From: a virus
Length of the DNA stretch: 35,592 nt
Virus record (IMG/VR): IMGVR_UViG_3300047463_000144
Span: 1-35,592 of that record
Direction: 5' to 3' (one strand)
The first letter of the stretch is position 1. Each line of letters starts with the position of its first letter. The notes beneath the pieces are model-generated. The model did not search any database. It saw only the letters and a program-made list of their open reading frames with translations, and was not told the DNA's origin. Of this stretch, positions 2,658 through 33,807 are shown piece after piece. Position numbers and translations under genes: made by a program.

Positions 2658-3005
2658 GTGTGCGCGCTCCGTTTCTGTCTCTATCCAGGATGCCGAGAGC
2701 TTGTTCCTAGTGGTCGATGTCAGGCACACGGTGGGCCGTCAGGCCAATGGCGTGGCGAGTCACCGAACCGTCTACGCGGCCGCGCGCTGCAGCGGGAGCG
2801 AACGCAGTTGTTCGCGCGTGAGCCGCTGTGTCGTGAGTGTCGACGCAACGGACGCACAAGCCTCGCGACCATCCGTGACCACATCGTGCCCCTCACCGAA
2901 GGCGGCACCGACGCACCAGGCAACATTCAGCCGCTCTGCAAGGCGTGCTCAGACCGGAAGACCGCAGCCGAGTCACTGCGCGGGCGCGAACGTGCGCGGC
3001 TGTGA
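2658..3005 (+). CDS. HNH endonuclease
   Basis: The 115-residue protein contains a complete HNH zinc-finger nuclease domain: C58-x2-C61, H75 in RDHIVP, N89 in GNIQPLC, and C94-x2-C97. An extra N-terminal Cys/His cluster (C7, C12, C21, H24) may bind a second zinc. It lies just upstream of the small terminase gene, as in HK97-type cos phages, where an HNH protein works with terminase to nick the cohesive-end site. The GTG at 2658 is chosen because the same frame is closed at 2625-2627 and no ATG lies between; the ribosome-binding site is weak. Confidence 0.85.
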   Translation: MCALRFCLYPGCRELVPSGRCQAHGGPSGQWRGESPNRLRGRALQRERTQLFAREPLCRECRRNGRTSLATIRDHIVPLTEGGTDAPGNIQPLCKACSDRKTAAESLRGRERARL

Positions 3006-3108
3006 CCAGGTAGGGGGGATCTGTTCTCTGGGGCGGACAGCCCCGGAAACCACGCGGCTCCTTCCGCAAAATGTGCGCGAAATCCAAATCGCGCTGAGGG
3101 TGCAGTAG
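3006..3108 (+). other. Candidate cos region
   Basis: This non-coding gap between the HNH nuclease and small terminase genes contains AGGGGGGATCTG (3012-3023). It is followed by a 7-bp stem (3028-3034 with 3040-3046, loop GGACA) and CCGGAAACCACG. Phages with an HNH protein beside a P27-type small terminase often keep a GGGGGG...CCGGAAACC block here. Placing cos in this gap is an inference from position and sequence character; the cut positions cannot be read from sequence alone. Confidence 0.45.
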
Positions 3109-3693
3109 GTGGGCGGGAAGGGATCAGGCGGCTTCCGGCGCGGCGCGGGTCGTCCGCGTAAGTCCGCAGAAGCAGGTCAGTTGAGCGGGTCTCGACGTAC
3201 CCGAGCGCGGGCGAAAGCTGCGAATCAAAAGACAGCAAATCAAAACGGGCATCAGGCTTCGCCGGCCGCGCCTTTGCAGCCAGAGCCAGCCGCCGTCATC
3301 AGCACGCCTGGTGTACCGCTGGCGCCAGACCGTCTGACCCTCGCGGAGCTGGCCGAGTGGAACTGGTTGGCCCCGCTGGCGTTCAAGGCCGGCAAGTTGA
3401 CCGACATGGACGTGCCGGCGCTCGTGGATCTCTGTCAGCGGCGCGTGCTGTACCGCGAGCTGCTGGACGGCGCGTATTCGGCCGGACTCGAGCAGCTCGC
3501 CCCGACCGGTGCGGTAGCGACGCACCCGCACGTCGCGAAGCTGACCAGTCTCGCAGCCAAGGTAGACGCCTTGATGGACAAGTTCGGTCTGTCGCCGGCG
3601 GCCAGGGAGCCGAAAGCGGCCGACCCTGTGGCGGATCCGTTCGACCAGTTCGACGCCGGCGGGCTCGGCGCCGATGAGGCGACGGTGAACTGA
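3109..3693 (+). CDS. terS: Terminase small subunit, P27-like
   Basis: The 194-residue product starts with GGKGSGGFRRGAGRPRK, a Gly/Arg-rich start typical of P27-family small terminases. A linker rich in Ala, Gln and Pro follows, then a helical domain with LTLAELAEWNWLAPLA and TDMDVPALVDLCQR, and a helix LAAKVDALMDKFGLSPAAR near the end. It would recognise the packaging site and hand DNA to the large subunit. The stop overlaps the terL ATG by one base. The GTG start is the first codon after a TAG. Confidence 0.85.
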   Translation: MGGKGSGGFRRGAGRPRKSAEAGQLSGSRRTRARAKAANQKTANQNGHQASPAAPLQPEPAAVISTPGVPLAPDRLTLAELAEWNWLAPLAFKAGKLTDMDVPALVDLCQRRVLYRELLDGAYSAGLEQLAPTGAVATHPHVAKLTSLAAKVDALMDKFGLSPAAREPKAADPVADPFDQFDAGGLGADEATVN

Positions 3694-29858: not shown

Positions 29859-30593
29859 ATGAGCGAACTGGCTTTGGCCCCTCCGACGAAAGACGCCCTC
29901 GCGCGTGACGCGGTGCGGTGGTCGAACGAAGTCAAGTCTCTGACCATCACCGATGCAGACGGCTGCGTGCAGGCCAGCTACCTGCTGCGCTCCATCAAGG
30001 GTGTGCGTTCGGACATTCAGCGGTGGTTCGCGCCACACGTCGAAGGCGCGATGGAGACCAAGCGCAAGGCTGAAGCCGCCCGGAAGGCGCTGGTGGACGA
30101 GCAGGAGCGCATGGAAGCCCCGCTGGTTCACGCGGAGGGGCTGGTGAAGCGTGCGCTCCTCGCATGGGAGCAGGAGCAGGAGCGCGTCCGCCTCGCCGAG
30201 CAGGCTCGGTTGCAGTCCGAAGCGCAGCGTCTCGCTGAGGAGCAGACGCTGGCGGCGGCGGCTGAACTCGAGCTGCACGCCAACCGCACGGGGGATGTTG
30301 AGATGCTGGAGGAGGCGGAAGCCATTCTGGCCCAGCCGATCGATGCTCCGCCCGTGGTGGTCAAGGCGAGCCAGCCGAAGGTGCAGGGCATCACCTACCG
30401 AGACAACTGGACCGTCCACCCTGACGTGAATGTGCGCGTGCTGGCGGCGGCCGTGGCGAAGGGCGATGCGCCGGTCACGTTTCTGGTGCCGAACATGACC
30501 GCGCTGCGACAGTGGGCGAAGGCCACGCAGGGCAGTCAGTCGATGCCAGGTGTGCAGGTCATCAACGACCGGCAGATCGCTGCGCGGGGTTGA
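29859..30593 (+). CDS. Coiled-coil phage recombination-region protein
   Basis: The 244-residue protein starts KSLTITDADGCVQASYLLRS and IKGVRSDIQRWFAPHVEGAM, followed by a long charged helix (KRKAEAARKALVDEQERMEA; EQERVRLAEQARLQSEAQRL). It ends with a beta domain GITYRDNWTVHPDVNVRVLA. This type is common beside ssDNA-binding or annealing genes in phages (DUF1351-like in appearance). It could be a structural partner of the recombination machinery. The start ATG is well placed. Confidence 0.7.
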   Translation: MSELALAPPTKDALARDAVRWSNEVKSLTITDADGCVQASYLLRSIKGVRSDIQRWFAPHVEGAMETKRKAEAARKALVDEQERMEAPLVHAEGLVKRALLAWEQEQERVRLAEQARLQSEAQRLAEEQTLAAAAELELHANRTGDVEMLEEAEAILAQPIDAPPVVVKASQPKVQGITYRDNWTVHPDVNVRVLAAAVAKGDAPVTFLVPNMTALRQWAKATQGSQSMPGVQVINDRQIAARG

Positions 30594-30594
30594 C

Positions 30595-31005
30595 ATGGGG
30601 ATCGAGCTGCCGACCTTCGTGGGTACGGTCAACGAGCACGGGCAGCTCGACTTCGCACCGGCCGTGCGCGGGTTGATGCGGGCGCACCTGCTACGGATGA
30701 AGCCCGGCGCGCCAGTGGAAGTGACCCTAAAGCGGTGGCGTCAGAAGCGCAGCTCGAAGGCAAACCGCTATTACTTCGGGGTAGTCGTGCCGCTCATTGC
30801 GTCGCACTGCGGTTACGACCGGCAGGAGATGCACGAACTACTGGCGATGCGGTTCCTGCGCATTGCGGACGACCCTGTTACCGGCGCGCCTAGGCGGAAG
30901 TCGACTCCAGAGACCGAAAGTGACGAGTTTAGCGAGTACGTGAACCACTGCATCCAGTTCGCCAGCGAACTTGGCGTGGTGATTCCAGACGCGGAGGCGC
31001 GTTGA
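30595..31005 (+). CDS. Conserved phage protein of recombination region
   Basis: The 136-residue protein carries RSSKANRYYFGVVVPLIASH followed by CGYDRQEMHELLAMRFLRI and ESDEFSEYVNHCIQFASELG. This is the recognisable pattern of a widespread phage protein (RS..N.YY.GVV......GY...EMHE.L...FL) found near NinB/recombination genes; the catalytic role is not proven. The ATG lies one base after the previous stop. Confidence 0.7.
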   Translation: MGIELPTFVGTVNEHGQLDFAPAVRGLMRAHLLRMKPGAPVEVTLKRWRQKRSSKANRYYFGVVVPLIASHCGYDRQEMHELLAMRFLRIADDPVTGAPRRKSTPETESDEFSEYVNHCIQFASELGVVIPDAEAR

Positions 31006-31448: not shown

Positions 31449-32111
31449 ATGCAGACATACACAGTGACACTGACCGGGGAATCTCCGCTGCTGATGCACG
31501 CCGACGACCTGAAGTGGCGTGCAGAGGTGGAACGCTACCTAGCCGACCCACAGAACAAGCCGACGATCAAACCTGGCGATGATCGCACGCCCGCGTGGAA
31601 GTGGGTGGGGTACTGCTATCACGACGGCAAGCACCTCGGTATCCCGTCCGACAACCTGATGACGGTGCTCCGTGAGGGCGGCGCGAAAGTGCCCACGGGC
31701 AAGAAGGGCGGGACCTTCAAGCGCCAGTCGCAGAGCGGGCTGGTGGTCAACCAGATGATGTGGCCCATCGTGACCACGGCTGGTTTCGTGAAGTGGTCGG
31801 ATGTGTCTGCGTTGACGGCTGAGCGCGACTACGCCGCCCATGAAGCTGCAGCGGCGTCGCTGGGATTCGAACTCTTTGCCAAGACGGCAAAGGTCGGGAT
31901 GAGCAAGCATGTGCGCGTTCGTCCCCGCTTCAACGGTTGGAGCATCACAGGCACCATCACGGTTCTGGACGACAGCATCACGCCCAACATTTTCCAGTCG
32001 ATTCTGGACATGGCTGGCACCTACTGCGGGCTCGGTGACTGGCGGCCGTCGTCGCCAAGTAAGCCTGGTCCTTGGGGGCGGTTCAAGGCGGAACTGCAGG
32101 TGGCGCGATGA
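31449..32111 (+). CDS. Conserved phage protein (LTGESPLLMH family)
   Basis: The 220-residue protein has TVTLTGESPLLMHADDLKW, then PGDDRTPAWKWVGYCYHDGK, LGIPSDNLMTVLREGGAKVP, and KVGMSKHVRVRPRFNGWSIT and GLGDWRPSSPSKPGPWGRF. These are hallmarks of a widespread phage protein whose biochemical role is not established. The alternation of beta strands and RVRPRF suggests nucleic-acid binding. It is paired with the next gene by a four-base overlap, a recurrent pair. Confidence 0.75.
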   Translation: MQTYTVTLTGESPLLMHADDLKWRAEVERYLADPQNKPTIKPGDDRTPAWKWVGYCYHDGKHLGIPSDNLMTVLREGGAKVPTGKKGGTFKRQSQSGLVVNQMMWPIVTTAGFVKWSDVSALTAERDYAAHEAAAASLGFELFAKTAKVGMSKHVRVRPRFNGWSITGTITVLDDSITPNIFQSILDMAGTYCGLGDWRPSSPSKPGPWGRFKAELQVAR

Positions 32112-32572
32112 CGCTGCCACGGTTCGGCGGACTCCCGACGGACGTCGATGTTCGGGTGTTGCGTGATACCTACGGCGTGCCTGCGGTGGGTTGGTCTGCC
32201 GACTATGCCGATGTCGCCACGCTGATCAATGTCAGCGAGCGCAGCCATCGGTTTCGCACGGTGACGAATCGCTGGCGGCATCAGCTTCGACGCGAGCACA
32301 ACGTCTACATCGCCGCGAAGGATGGCCAGTTCTTCGCGCTGTCCTCGCCCGAACGCATCGACCACGGCAGCGCCAAGTTGCGAACAGCGGTGCGGTCTGC
32401 GCGGCAGGCACACACGGTGGTCGGGGCCACGGATCGCAGCGGTCTGAGCGATGAGCAGAAAGCTCGCGCCGATCACATTCTCATGACGACAACGACGGTG
32501 CTGCAGTCGGCACGGCTGCAGGCGAAGTCGCGCGTGCCGGTGCTGCCGGAAGGCGTGAAGACGGCGAACTAG
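32108..32572 (+). CDS. Conserved phage protein, partner of preceding gene
   Basis: The 154-residue protein contains SHRFRTVTNRWRHQLRREHN followed by YIAAKDGQFFALSSPERID and a helical C-terminus (SDEQKARADHILMTTTTVLQ). The N-R-W-R...RRE/H pattern with a downstream strand is conserved in phages. It directly precedes an unusual GGCNN pentamer array and may act on or through it. The role is unknown. It overlaps the preceding stop (ATGA). Confidence 0.7.
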   Translation: MTLPRFGGLPTDVDVRVLRDTYGVPAVGWSADYADVATLINVSERSHRFRTVTNRWRHQLRREHNVYIAAKDGQFFALSSPERIDHGSAKLRTAVRSARQAHTVVGATDRSGLSDEQKARADHILMTTTTVLQSARLQAKSRVPVLPEGVKTAN

Positions 32573-32578
32573 AACCAC

Positions 32579-32656
32579 GGCATGGCATGGGCAAGGCATG
32601 GACCGCGGCCCGGCAGGGCAAGGCACGGCTTGGCCGGGCATGGCGAGGCATGGGGG
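32579..32656. repeat. GGCNN pentanucleotide array
   Basis: About fifteen five-base units of the form GGCNN lie in this 78-base gap: two GGCAT, a G interruption, GGCAA, GGCAT, GGACC, a GC interruption, then GGCCC, GGCAG, GGCAA, GGCAC, GGCTT, GGCCG, GGCAT, GGCGA, GGCAT, GGGGG. A five-base period cannot preserve reading frame, so it is not coding. GG runs spaced by three bases form a two-quartet G-quadruplex motif. The last G-run serves as the ribosome-binding site of the next gene. Confidence 0.75.
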
Positions 32657-32666
32657 AGATAACTCA

Positions 32667-33171: not shown

Positions 33172-33807
33172 ATGGCTGGCTTCACGAAGCTGTTCGCCTC
33201 GTTGCTCGCGTCTACCGTCTGGCGCGAGGACGACAAGGTGCGGATCGTCTGGATCACGCTGCTGGCGATGGCGGACCAGGACGGCGTGGCTGAAGGGTCA
33301 GTGCCAGGTATCGCAGACCTCGCGCGTGTGTCGCTGGACGACTGCGAACGAGCGTTGACGAAGCTGCAACAGCCCGATCATTACTCTCGGTCACATGATT
33401 ACGAGGGGCGGCGCATCCAAGCGGTAGACGGCGGATTCCGCGTGCTGAATCACACCAAATACCGCGCCAAGTTGAGCAAAGACGAGCGGCGAGAGTATCG
33501 CCGGAAGTGGGTGGCTGACCGTCGCGCGGAAGGTTTCTGTGAACACGGCGTGAACACTCGTGAACACGGCGTGAACAGTTGTGAACGGTGTGAACACAAG
33601 CAGAAGCAGAAGCAGAAGCAGAAGAAATACAAGAACCCCCCTAACCCCCCTAAAGGGGGGCGTGCGAAAAAGCCGACGAGAGACGAACGACAAACAGCGG
33701 AACGCCTGATCAAGCACGCCTTCGGTTGCACGCACATCCCACGGTGCGCGAACCACGAAGCCTGTGTGCTGTTGGTGGTGCAGGGACTGCGGGAGCGGGC
33801 GTCGTGA
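33172..33807 (+). CDS. Replication initiator, O-like winged-helix protein
   Basis: The 211-residue protein starts FTKLFASLLASTVWREDDKV and continues with RIVWITLLAMADQDGVAEGS, VPGIADLARVSLDDCERALT and YEGRRIQAVDGGFRVLNHTK, the winged-helix N-terminal pattern of phage replication organisers (lambda O-like/DnaD-like). The central linker is highly repetitive (EHGVN repeats, KQKQKQKQK, NPPNPPKGG), encoded by iteron DNA. A C-terminal helical domain (LIKHAFGCTHIPRCANHEAC) follows. It would bind the origin in its own gene and recruit a helicase. Confidence 0.8.
   Translation: MAGFTKLFASLLASTVWREDDKVRIVWITLLAMADQDGVAEGSVPGIADLARVSLDDCERALTKLQQPDHYSRSHDYEGRRIQAVDGGFRVLNHTKYRAKLSKDERREYRRKWVADRRAEGFCEHGVNTREHGVNSCERCEHKQKQKQKQKKYKNPPNPPKGGRAKKPTRDERQTAERLIKHAFGCTHIPRCANHEACVLLVVQGLRERAS
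33539..33621. repeat. Iteron cluster and purine repeat; candidate origin
   Basis: GTGAAC begins at 33539, 33550, 33560, 33571, 33581 and 33590: six direct repeats, most continuing as ACxx, with spacing 11, 10, 11, 10 and 9 bases, close to one DNA turn. Four AAGCAG copies (33598-33621) follow, then an A-rich stretch and two C6 blocks with a G6 partner (33636-33660). The layout inside the initiator gene matches lambda-type origins. The spacers fit the reading frame, so amino-acid repeats result. Confidence 0.75.
33645..33660. other. C6/G6 hairpin in replication gene
   Basis: CCCCCC, TAAA and GGGGGG form a six-base-pair stem with a four-base loop. A second C6 block at 33636-33641 could pair with the same G6 in a slipped form. 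It encodes part of NPPNPPKGG. Located right after the iterons and purine repeats, it may be part of the origin or a translational regulator of the C-terminal domain. Confidence 0.55.

Follow-up and report, generated by a model that had tools for sequence, protein, structure and literature searches.

A GGCNN pentanucleotide array beside a vipr gene is very probably the guide-RNA region of a phage VIPR system

A phased GGCNN array in a phage genome

What is the role of a run of five-base units, each beginning with GGC, in a gap between phage genes? The window that we analyzed is the whole 35,592-nucleotide stretch of IMG/VR record IMGVR_UViG_3300047463_000144 (positions 1-35,592, + strand), in which the array spans positions 32579-32656. 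An earlier note on this DNA had described about fifteen phased GGCNN units with two short interruptions, and by reading the sequence we counted fourteen: 13 GGCNN units and one GGACC unit, starting at positions 32579, 32584, 32590, 32595, 32600 (GGACC), 32607, 32612, 32617, 32622, 32627, 32632, 32637, 32642 and 32647. The two interruptions are a one-base insertion of G (32589) and the seven-base sequence GGACCGC (32600-32606), after which nine consecutive GGCNN units keep perfect phase (32607-32651). The array is non-coding, as the note had held: it sits between the TAG stop codon (32570-32572) of the gene at 32108-32572 and the TTG start codon (32667) of the next ORF, which has 44 codons and one hydrophobic stretch.

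A scan for phased GGC on both strands of the window found this array alone, with a score of 9, and the maximum score among 200 windows simulated with an order-3 Markov model was 4, so the GGC phase exceeds chance. When order-1 Markov chains were trained on the array, nine phased units appeared in none of 20,000 trials; order-2 chains did so in 101 of 20,000 trials, because they had already learnt the GGC phase. Tandem Repeats Finder (TRF) gives the array a low score (32; period 5, 65% matches), as fits a degenerate unit better than slippage of one unit, in line with the note's argument. The array is therefore real, and the original observation is confirmed. Searches of the window and eight array loci against Rfam, hammerhead ribozymes included, gave no match, and a literature search on pentanucleotide repeats and on GGCAAGGCAAGG found nothing relevant.

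The window also contains other repeats. Inside the ORF at 33172-33807 there are direct repeats (33539-33597; GTGAACACGGC / GTGAACACTC) with a 21-base period and 2.9 copies by TRF, and these are followed by 4.5 copies of AAGCAG (33598-33624) and 2.2 copies of AACCCCCCT (33634-33653). The repeats in this ORF could be the iterons of a replication origin that lies within a replication-type gene.

The genes upstream of the array belong to the vipr and vap families

The gene at 31449-32111 (+ strand) encodes a protein of 220 amino acids that matches phrog_4652 (E = 1.6e-21), a family listed with unknown function in PHROGs and matched by 47 of the 48 members of the protein's family. Pfam, NCBIfam and PADLOC gave no name for this gene or for its neighbor at 32108-32572. 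By contrast, a profile of the 48-sequence family hit one solved protein over nearly its full length, PDB 36pp_D, the 'SUSP1 Vipr protein' (E = 1.8e-33). With AlphaFold2, the window's protein was modeled at a pLDDT of 91.6, and the solved structures that match the model best (lowest E = 1.3e-5) are Cas7-type RAMP subunits from CRISPR complexes of types VII and III; the structure library ended in April 2026, so 36pp itself was not expected among them. A glycine-rich C-terminal motif, GxxxGxGxxRP...FGxF, is conserved in the family. Judged by profile match, modeled fold and C-terminal motif, the protein is a RAMP (Cas7-like) homolog and belongs to the Vipr family.

VIPR, as set out in a 2026 bioRxiv preprint (PMC13142463), consists of a vipr gene, a vap gene and guide RNAs (vrRNAs) of 9-16 GGY/NN (YNNGG) repeats. 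The NN letters of a vrRNA pair with double-stranded DNA, with one target base skipped per unit, and the system represses competing elements; its targets usually lie in competing phages. An invariable 3' tail closes the repeat tract of a vrRNA. The preprint reports that RNA production, binding, the skip rule and silencing were shown for SUSP1 and P. fulva, that single-vrRNA systems exist, and that 'staggered arrays with overlapping vrRNAs' are found among other layouts.

The gene at 32108-32572 (+ strand) overlaps the stop of vipr by 4 bases (ATGA), and its product is 29-48% identical to those of genes in six viral loci (L084, L057 and L159-L162). It lies directly 3' of vipr in six of six close relatives. 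An iterated profile reached vap1 of phage SUSP1 (L170:2091-2531; E = 6.2e-34 after iteration), as well as genes beside vipr elsewhere, and a direct hhalign comparison of a seven-sequence vap profile with SUSP1 vap1 was weaker (E = 8.9e-4, probability 23). The structural model (pLDDT 83) has the order of elements of a winged helix, followed by C-terminal helices, and its structural matches, to winged-helix proteins, are weak, none with E below 0.001. The gene pair, which the earlier note had called uncharacterized, thus now consists of vipr and a vap, adjacent to each other as in other VIPR systems. The vap1 homology and the winged-helix-like model point to VIPR type II, which has a DNA-binding vap, as in SUSP1.

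Upstream of vipr, at 29859-31005, are an exonuclease-like gene (phrog_10477) and a NinB/Orf-like recombination mediator gene (phrog_72).

GGY arrays accompany vipr genes on the same strand

We compared arrays and vipr genes across loci from two directions. Scanning IMG/VR for four consecutive GGCAW units yielded at least 120 loci, and a reversed-pattern control yielded 37. Most of the listed loci continue as GGCNN well past the 20-mer of the search, and all 16 dinucleotides occur as NN. Gene maps of the array-rich loci show that the arrays flank a single family, whose proteins start with ..TGxSPLLMH.. or ..IMFDRYPGDN.., and the gene at 31449-32111 is a member of it. By profile search, this vipr family is present in 60 of the 81 degenerate-array viral loci among the matches listed, versus 2 of the 37 control loci.

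In the other direction, 71 distinct loci were fetched by the Vipr protein alone and searched for arrays of at least seven GGY units within 1.2 kb; these loci come from a Vipr subfamily other than the window's, whose own clade is covered by six close relatives (L158-L163). At least one array lies near vipr in 59 of the 71. In equal amounts of DNA there were 152 arrays near vipr and 5 far from it, versus 3 near and 0 far in a reversed-sequence control, and all 152 near arrays share the strand of vipr. Of the 12 loci that lack an array, 8 have period-5 tracts that are shorter or irregular. Named phages with Vipr also have arrays, in six cases out of six: LittleE, LESphi2, MakoManhole, Trine, UmaThurman and SUSP1. 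The absence of arrays beside the same gene pair in relatives was the outcome that the earlier note had named as fatal to its proposal of an RNA-level element linked to the two preceding genes. Arrays are instead present at these loci and in all six close relatives, in agreement with that proposal.

Several loci deserve separate mention. The vipr genes of the well-known phages LittleE, LESphi2, MakoManhole, Trine and UmaThurman (L165-L169) are annotated as hypothetical, with arrays adjoining them, and so is that of SUSP1. Four Vipr loci (L199, L202, L205 and L219) have no recognizable GGY array within 1.5 kb, and may use another repeat or guides located elsewhere. Beside vipr in L233 (3842-3896), GC is phased every five bases and the first G is often T (TGC and GGC mixed), perhaps a variant repeat consensus.

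Guide blocks and joints in the window and its relatives

The Vipr proteins of L158-L163 are 71-76% identical to that of the window, and some are near-identical among themselves. In all six of these relatives, each of which has downstream sequence, vipr and an overlapping vap are followed by GGCNN blocks joined by the seven-base sequence GGAACNN. The blocks are about 7-18 units long, their lengths are nearly all exact multiples of five, and the relatives have about 6-12 of them, versus one or two in the window. As expected of VIPR, the NN letters are hypervariable and GGY is conserved in the blocks of L158-L162. Two more distant relatives, L084 and L057, use GGAACNN too.

Against this pattern the window's array can be divided as follows, all on the + strand. 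A probable leader, GAACCAC (32572-32578), resembles the GGAACNN found 5' of the first block in relatives, judging by L158 and L162. Block a (32579-32599) is GGCAT GGCAT G GGCAA GGCAT, four units with one inserted G, and is short and possibly decayed. The main interruption, GGACCGC (32600-32606), is probably the joint between two guides, because it is GGAACNN with one change and the identical change occurs in L160 (GGACCGA), according to the separator tables of L158-L162. Block b (32607-32651) has nine in-phase units with NN = CC AG AA AC TT CG AT GA AT. Block b thus has exactly 9 units, within the 9-16 known for VIPR, and block a only 4. The array ends in GGGGGAGATAACTCA (32652-32666), in which GGGGGAG (32652-32658) is positioned so that it may double as the ribosome-binding site of the ORF starting at TTG 32667.

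Clear 3' tails after the repeat tract are found in L019, where the tail is hairpin-like (GGGGTCTTCGGACC), and in L173 (GGRAGCAG). The window's clade has GGAACNN alone, and the window's GGGGGAG fits neither pattern. The clade (the window, L158-L163, L084 and L057) could have a distinct vrRNA architecture in which many guides stand head to tail and a seven-base GGAACNN joint serves both as the end of one guide and as the start of the following one, with neither folded tail nor ribozyme, although we think this doubtful. The compact layout may already be described in the VIPR preprint, to judge from the layouts that it mentions (PMC13142463).

Among whole genomes, the sole relative is a contig (L173) of a Thermoanaerobaculia metagenome-assembled genome, the only one of 149 in its class to carry such a gene; its Vipr is 45% identical to the window's. 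An in-frame TAG lies close to the 3' end of the L173 vipr gene (2904-3557), and there are five arrays, each capped by GGRAGCAG.

A predicted guide and its targets

The array very probably supplies the guide RNAs (vrRNAs) of a VIPR system encoded by the phage, in which 31449-32111 is vipr and 32108-32572 is vap1-like, a reading that draws together the repeat, the two gene families, the Vipr fold, the strand and position link and the block layout of the relatives. VIPR systems are encoded by phages or mobile elements, and the window contains phage genes for terminase, portal, major head and tape-measure proteins. The transcript would run through the array. Vipr, as a small RAMP protein, would coat this RNA with one subunit per pentamer, gripping GGC and presenting NN. 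Each NN in turn would pair with a double-stranded DNA target, in which one base would be left unread before the next pair. Once bound, the complex would keep a competing phage, or another mobile element, from being transcribed, and vap would assist.

By analogy with the published systems, we infer that block b is a working guide and that the window phage uses it for targeting. Decoded by the 1-nt skip rule (PMC13142463), its predicted protospacer is 5'-CCxAGxAAxACxTTxCGxATxGAxAT-3', which if codon-aligned would encode P-[SR]-[KN]-T-[FL]-R-[IM]-[DE]-[IM]. The exact nine-unit protospacer is absent from viral_contigs, and ten related records do not contain it even when up to 3 mismatches are allowed. 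Where eight-unit windows of it match, the gene is an unrelated structural one or the match is out of codon phase, and in the 149 genomes of the L173 class there were 4 matches versus 1 for the control; neither search gave a convincing target. More broadly, 308 long guides compared with 2 Mb of sequence showed no excess for a 1-nt skip. One match from this comparison, in L040 with 2 mismatches, was rejected as a target because it is not in a credible gene.

Homologous guides recur in the relatives, at L158:1556, L161:1913, L162:6318 and L162:6685 (CC AG GG/GT GT TT TA ...; codons P-[SR]-G/V-V-[FL]-Y). This recurrence across related phages suggests a shared target. The recurrent guide CC AG GG GT TT TA AA GA had two matches, neither in codon phase, and the search gave no shared target.

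Alternative explanations

The locus might be a VIPR system in decay, from which recombination between repeats has removed most vrRNAs, or its array might have collapsed during metagenome assembly; either would leave one intact-looking and one damaged block. The few blocks relative to relatives, the one-base insertion in block a and the lack of a clear tail are consistent with this, but block b has nine perfectly phased units with GGC intact, in the published range, the vipr and vap frames are open, and single-vrRNA systems are reported in the preprint (PMC13142463). We regard decay or collapse as possible but unlikely. The membership of the open vipr and vap genes in VIPR is unaffected by the shortness of the array, its phase error or its 3' end.

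Autoregulation resembling that by TRAP was the first mechanism that we considered, and we dropped it on the match to PDB 36pp. Vipr would bind the GGC repeats in the leader of the next gene and block its ribosome-binding site, without DNA targeting. It is very improbable: the period of five, in which three letters are fixed and two vary, would suit it, and so would the way the array runs up to the likely ribosome-binding site of the ORF that follows, but homologous blocks differ in NN and agree in GGC, the relatives' many blocks lie away from start codons, and DNA targeting by the family is reported in PMC13142463.

The earlier note had proposed a G-quadruplex or a recombination or replication signal, pointing to the GG that recurs at five-base intervals on the + strand, and the NinB-like and exonuclease genes upstream could be seen in the same light. 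However, arrays follow vipr in differing surroundings and always on its sense strand, NN varies freely, long C-containing blocks included, and SUSP1 units are GGT-rich. The ViennaRNA fold is an ordinary hairpin of equal energy whether or not quadruplexes are allowed, and in the published system Vipr binding accounts for the conservation of the GGY triplets (PMC13142463). Quadruplex, recombination and replication functions are not supported, and the array is not primarily a motif of these kinds; we consider such a signal more improbable still. Chance, or slippage of a microsatellite in GC-rich intergenic DNA, is already refuted by the simulations above and by the link of position and strand to vipr (3 control arrays versus 152), even though the window is 64% G+C and the reversed-pattern scan shows that other period-5 tracts occur in viral contigs.

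Significance and comparison with known systems

VIPR, described only recently, recognizes DNA through an RNA guide whose code is non-contiguous. It is a phage-encoded relative of CRISPR and has been proposed as an ancestor of class 1 CRISPR. The system itself is already known (2026 preprint, PMC13142463), and the window phage adds a new member. Besides an independent test of the link between vipr and arrays, made from raw sequence without the preprint, the locus and its relatives reveal a compact arrangement of guides with seven-base joints. Many further loci for the study of guide processing and natural targets can be drawn from the protein-first and array-first sets.

TRAP binds NAGNN repeats in leaders. 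The window shares with it the periodic logic of three plus two letters and an RNA bound by protein repeats, but its triplet is GGC, the proposed role is that of a guide, and the protein is a RAMP with no match to the TRAP family. Class 1 CRISPR-Cas systems (types III and VII) resemble the window in the match of the Vipr model to Cas7 subunits, but the window has a single small RAMP and a pentamer code; TRF found no CRISPR repeats in the window, no other cas genes were recognized beside vipr, and a Pfam scan of neighboring genes gave no family except HNH.

The VIPR system of Escherichia phage SUSP1 (L170) has a RAMP Vipr, an adjacent vap1 homolog and same-strand GGY/NN arrays beside vipr in common with the window. 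Its Vipr is only about 23% identical to the window's, its units are mostly GGT and not GGC, its vrRNA has a structured 3' tail whereas the window has no recognizable tail and instead the short separator GGACCGC, and it has four blocks compared to one or two. L158-L163 have more blocks than the window, which has one good block and one damaged, but share with it the ATGA overlap of vipr and vap, followed by GGCNN blocks split by a seven-base separator.
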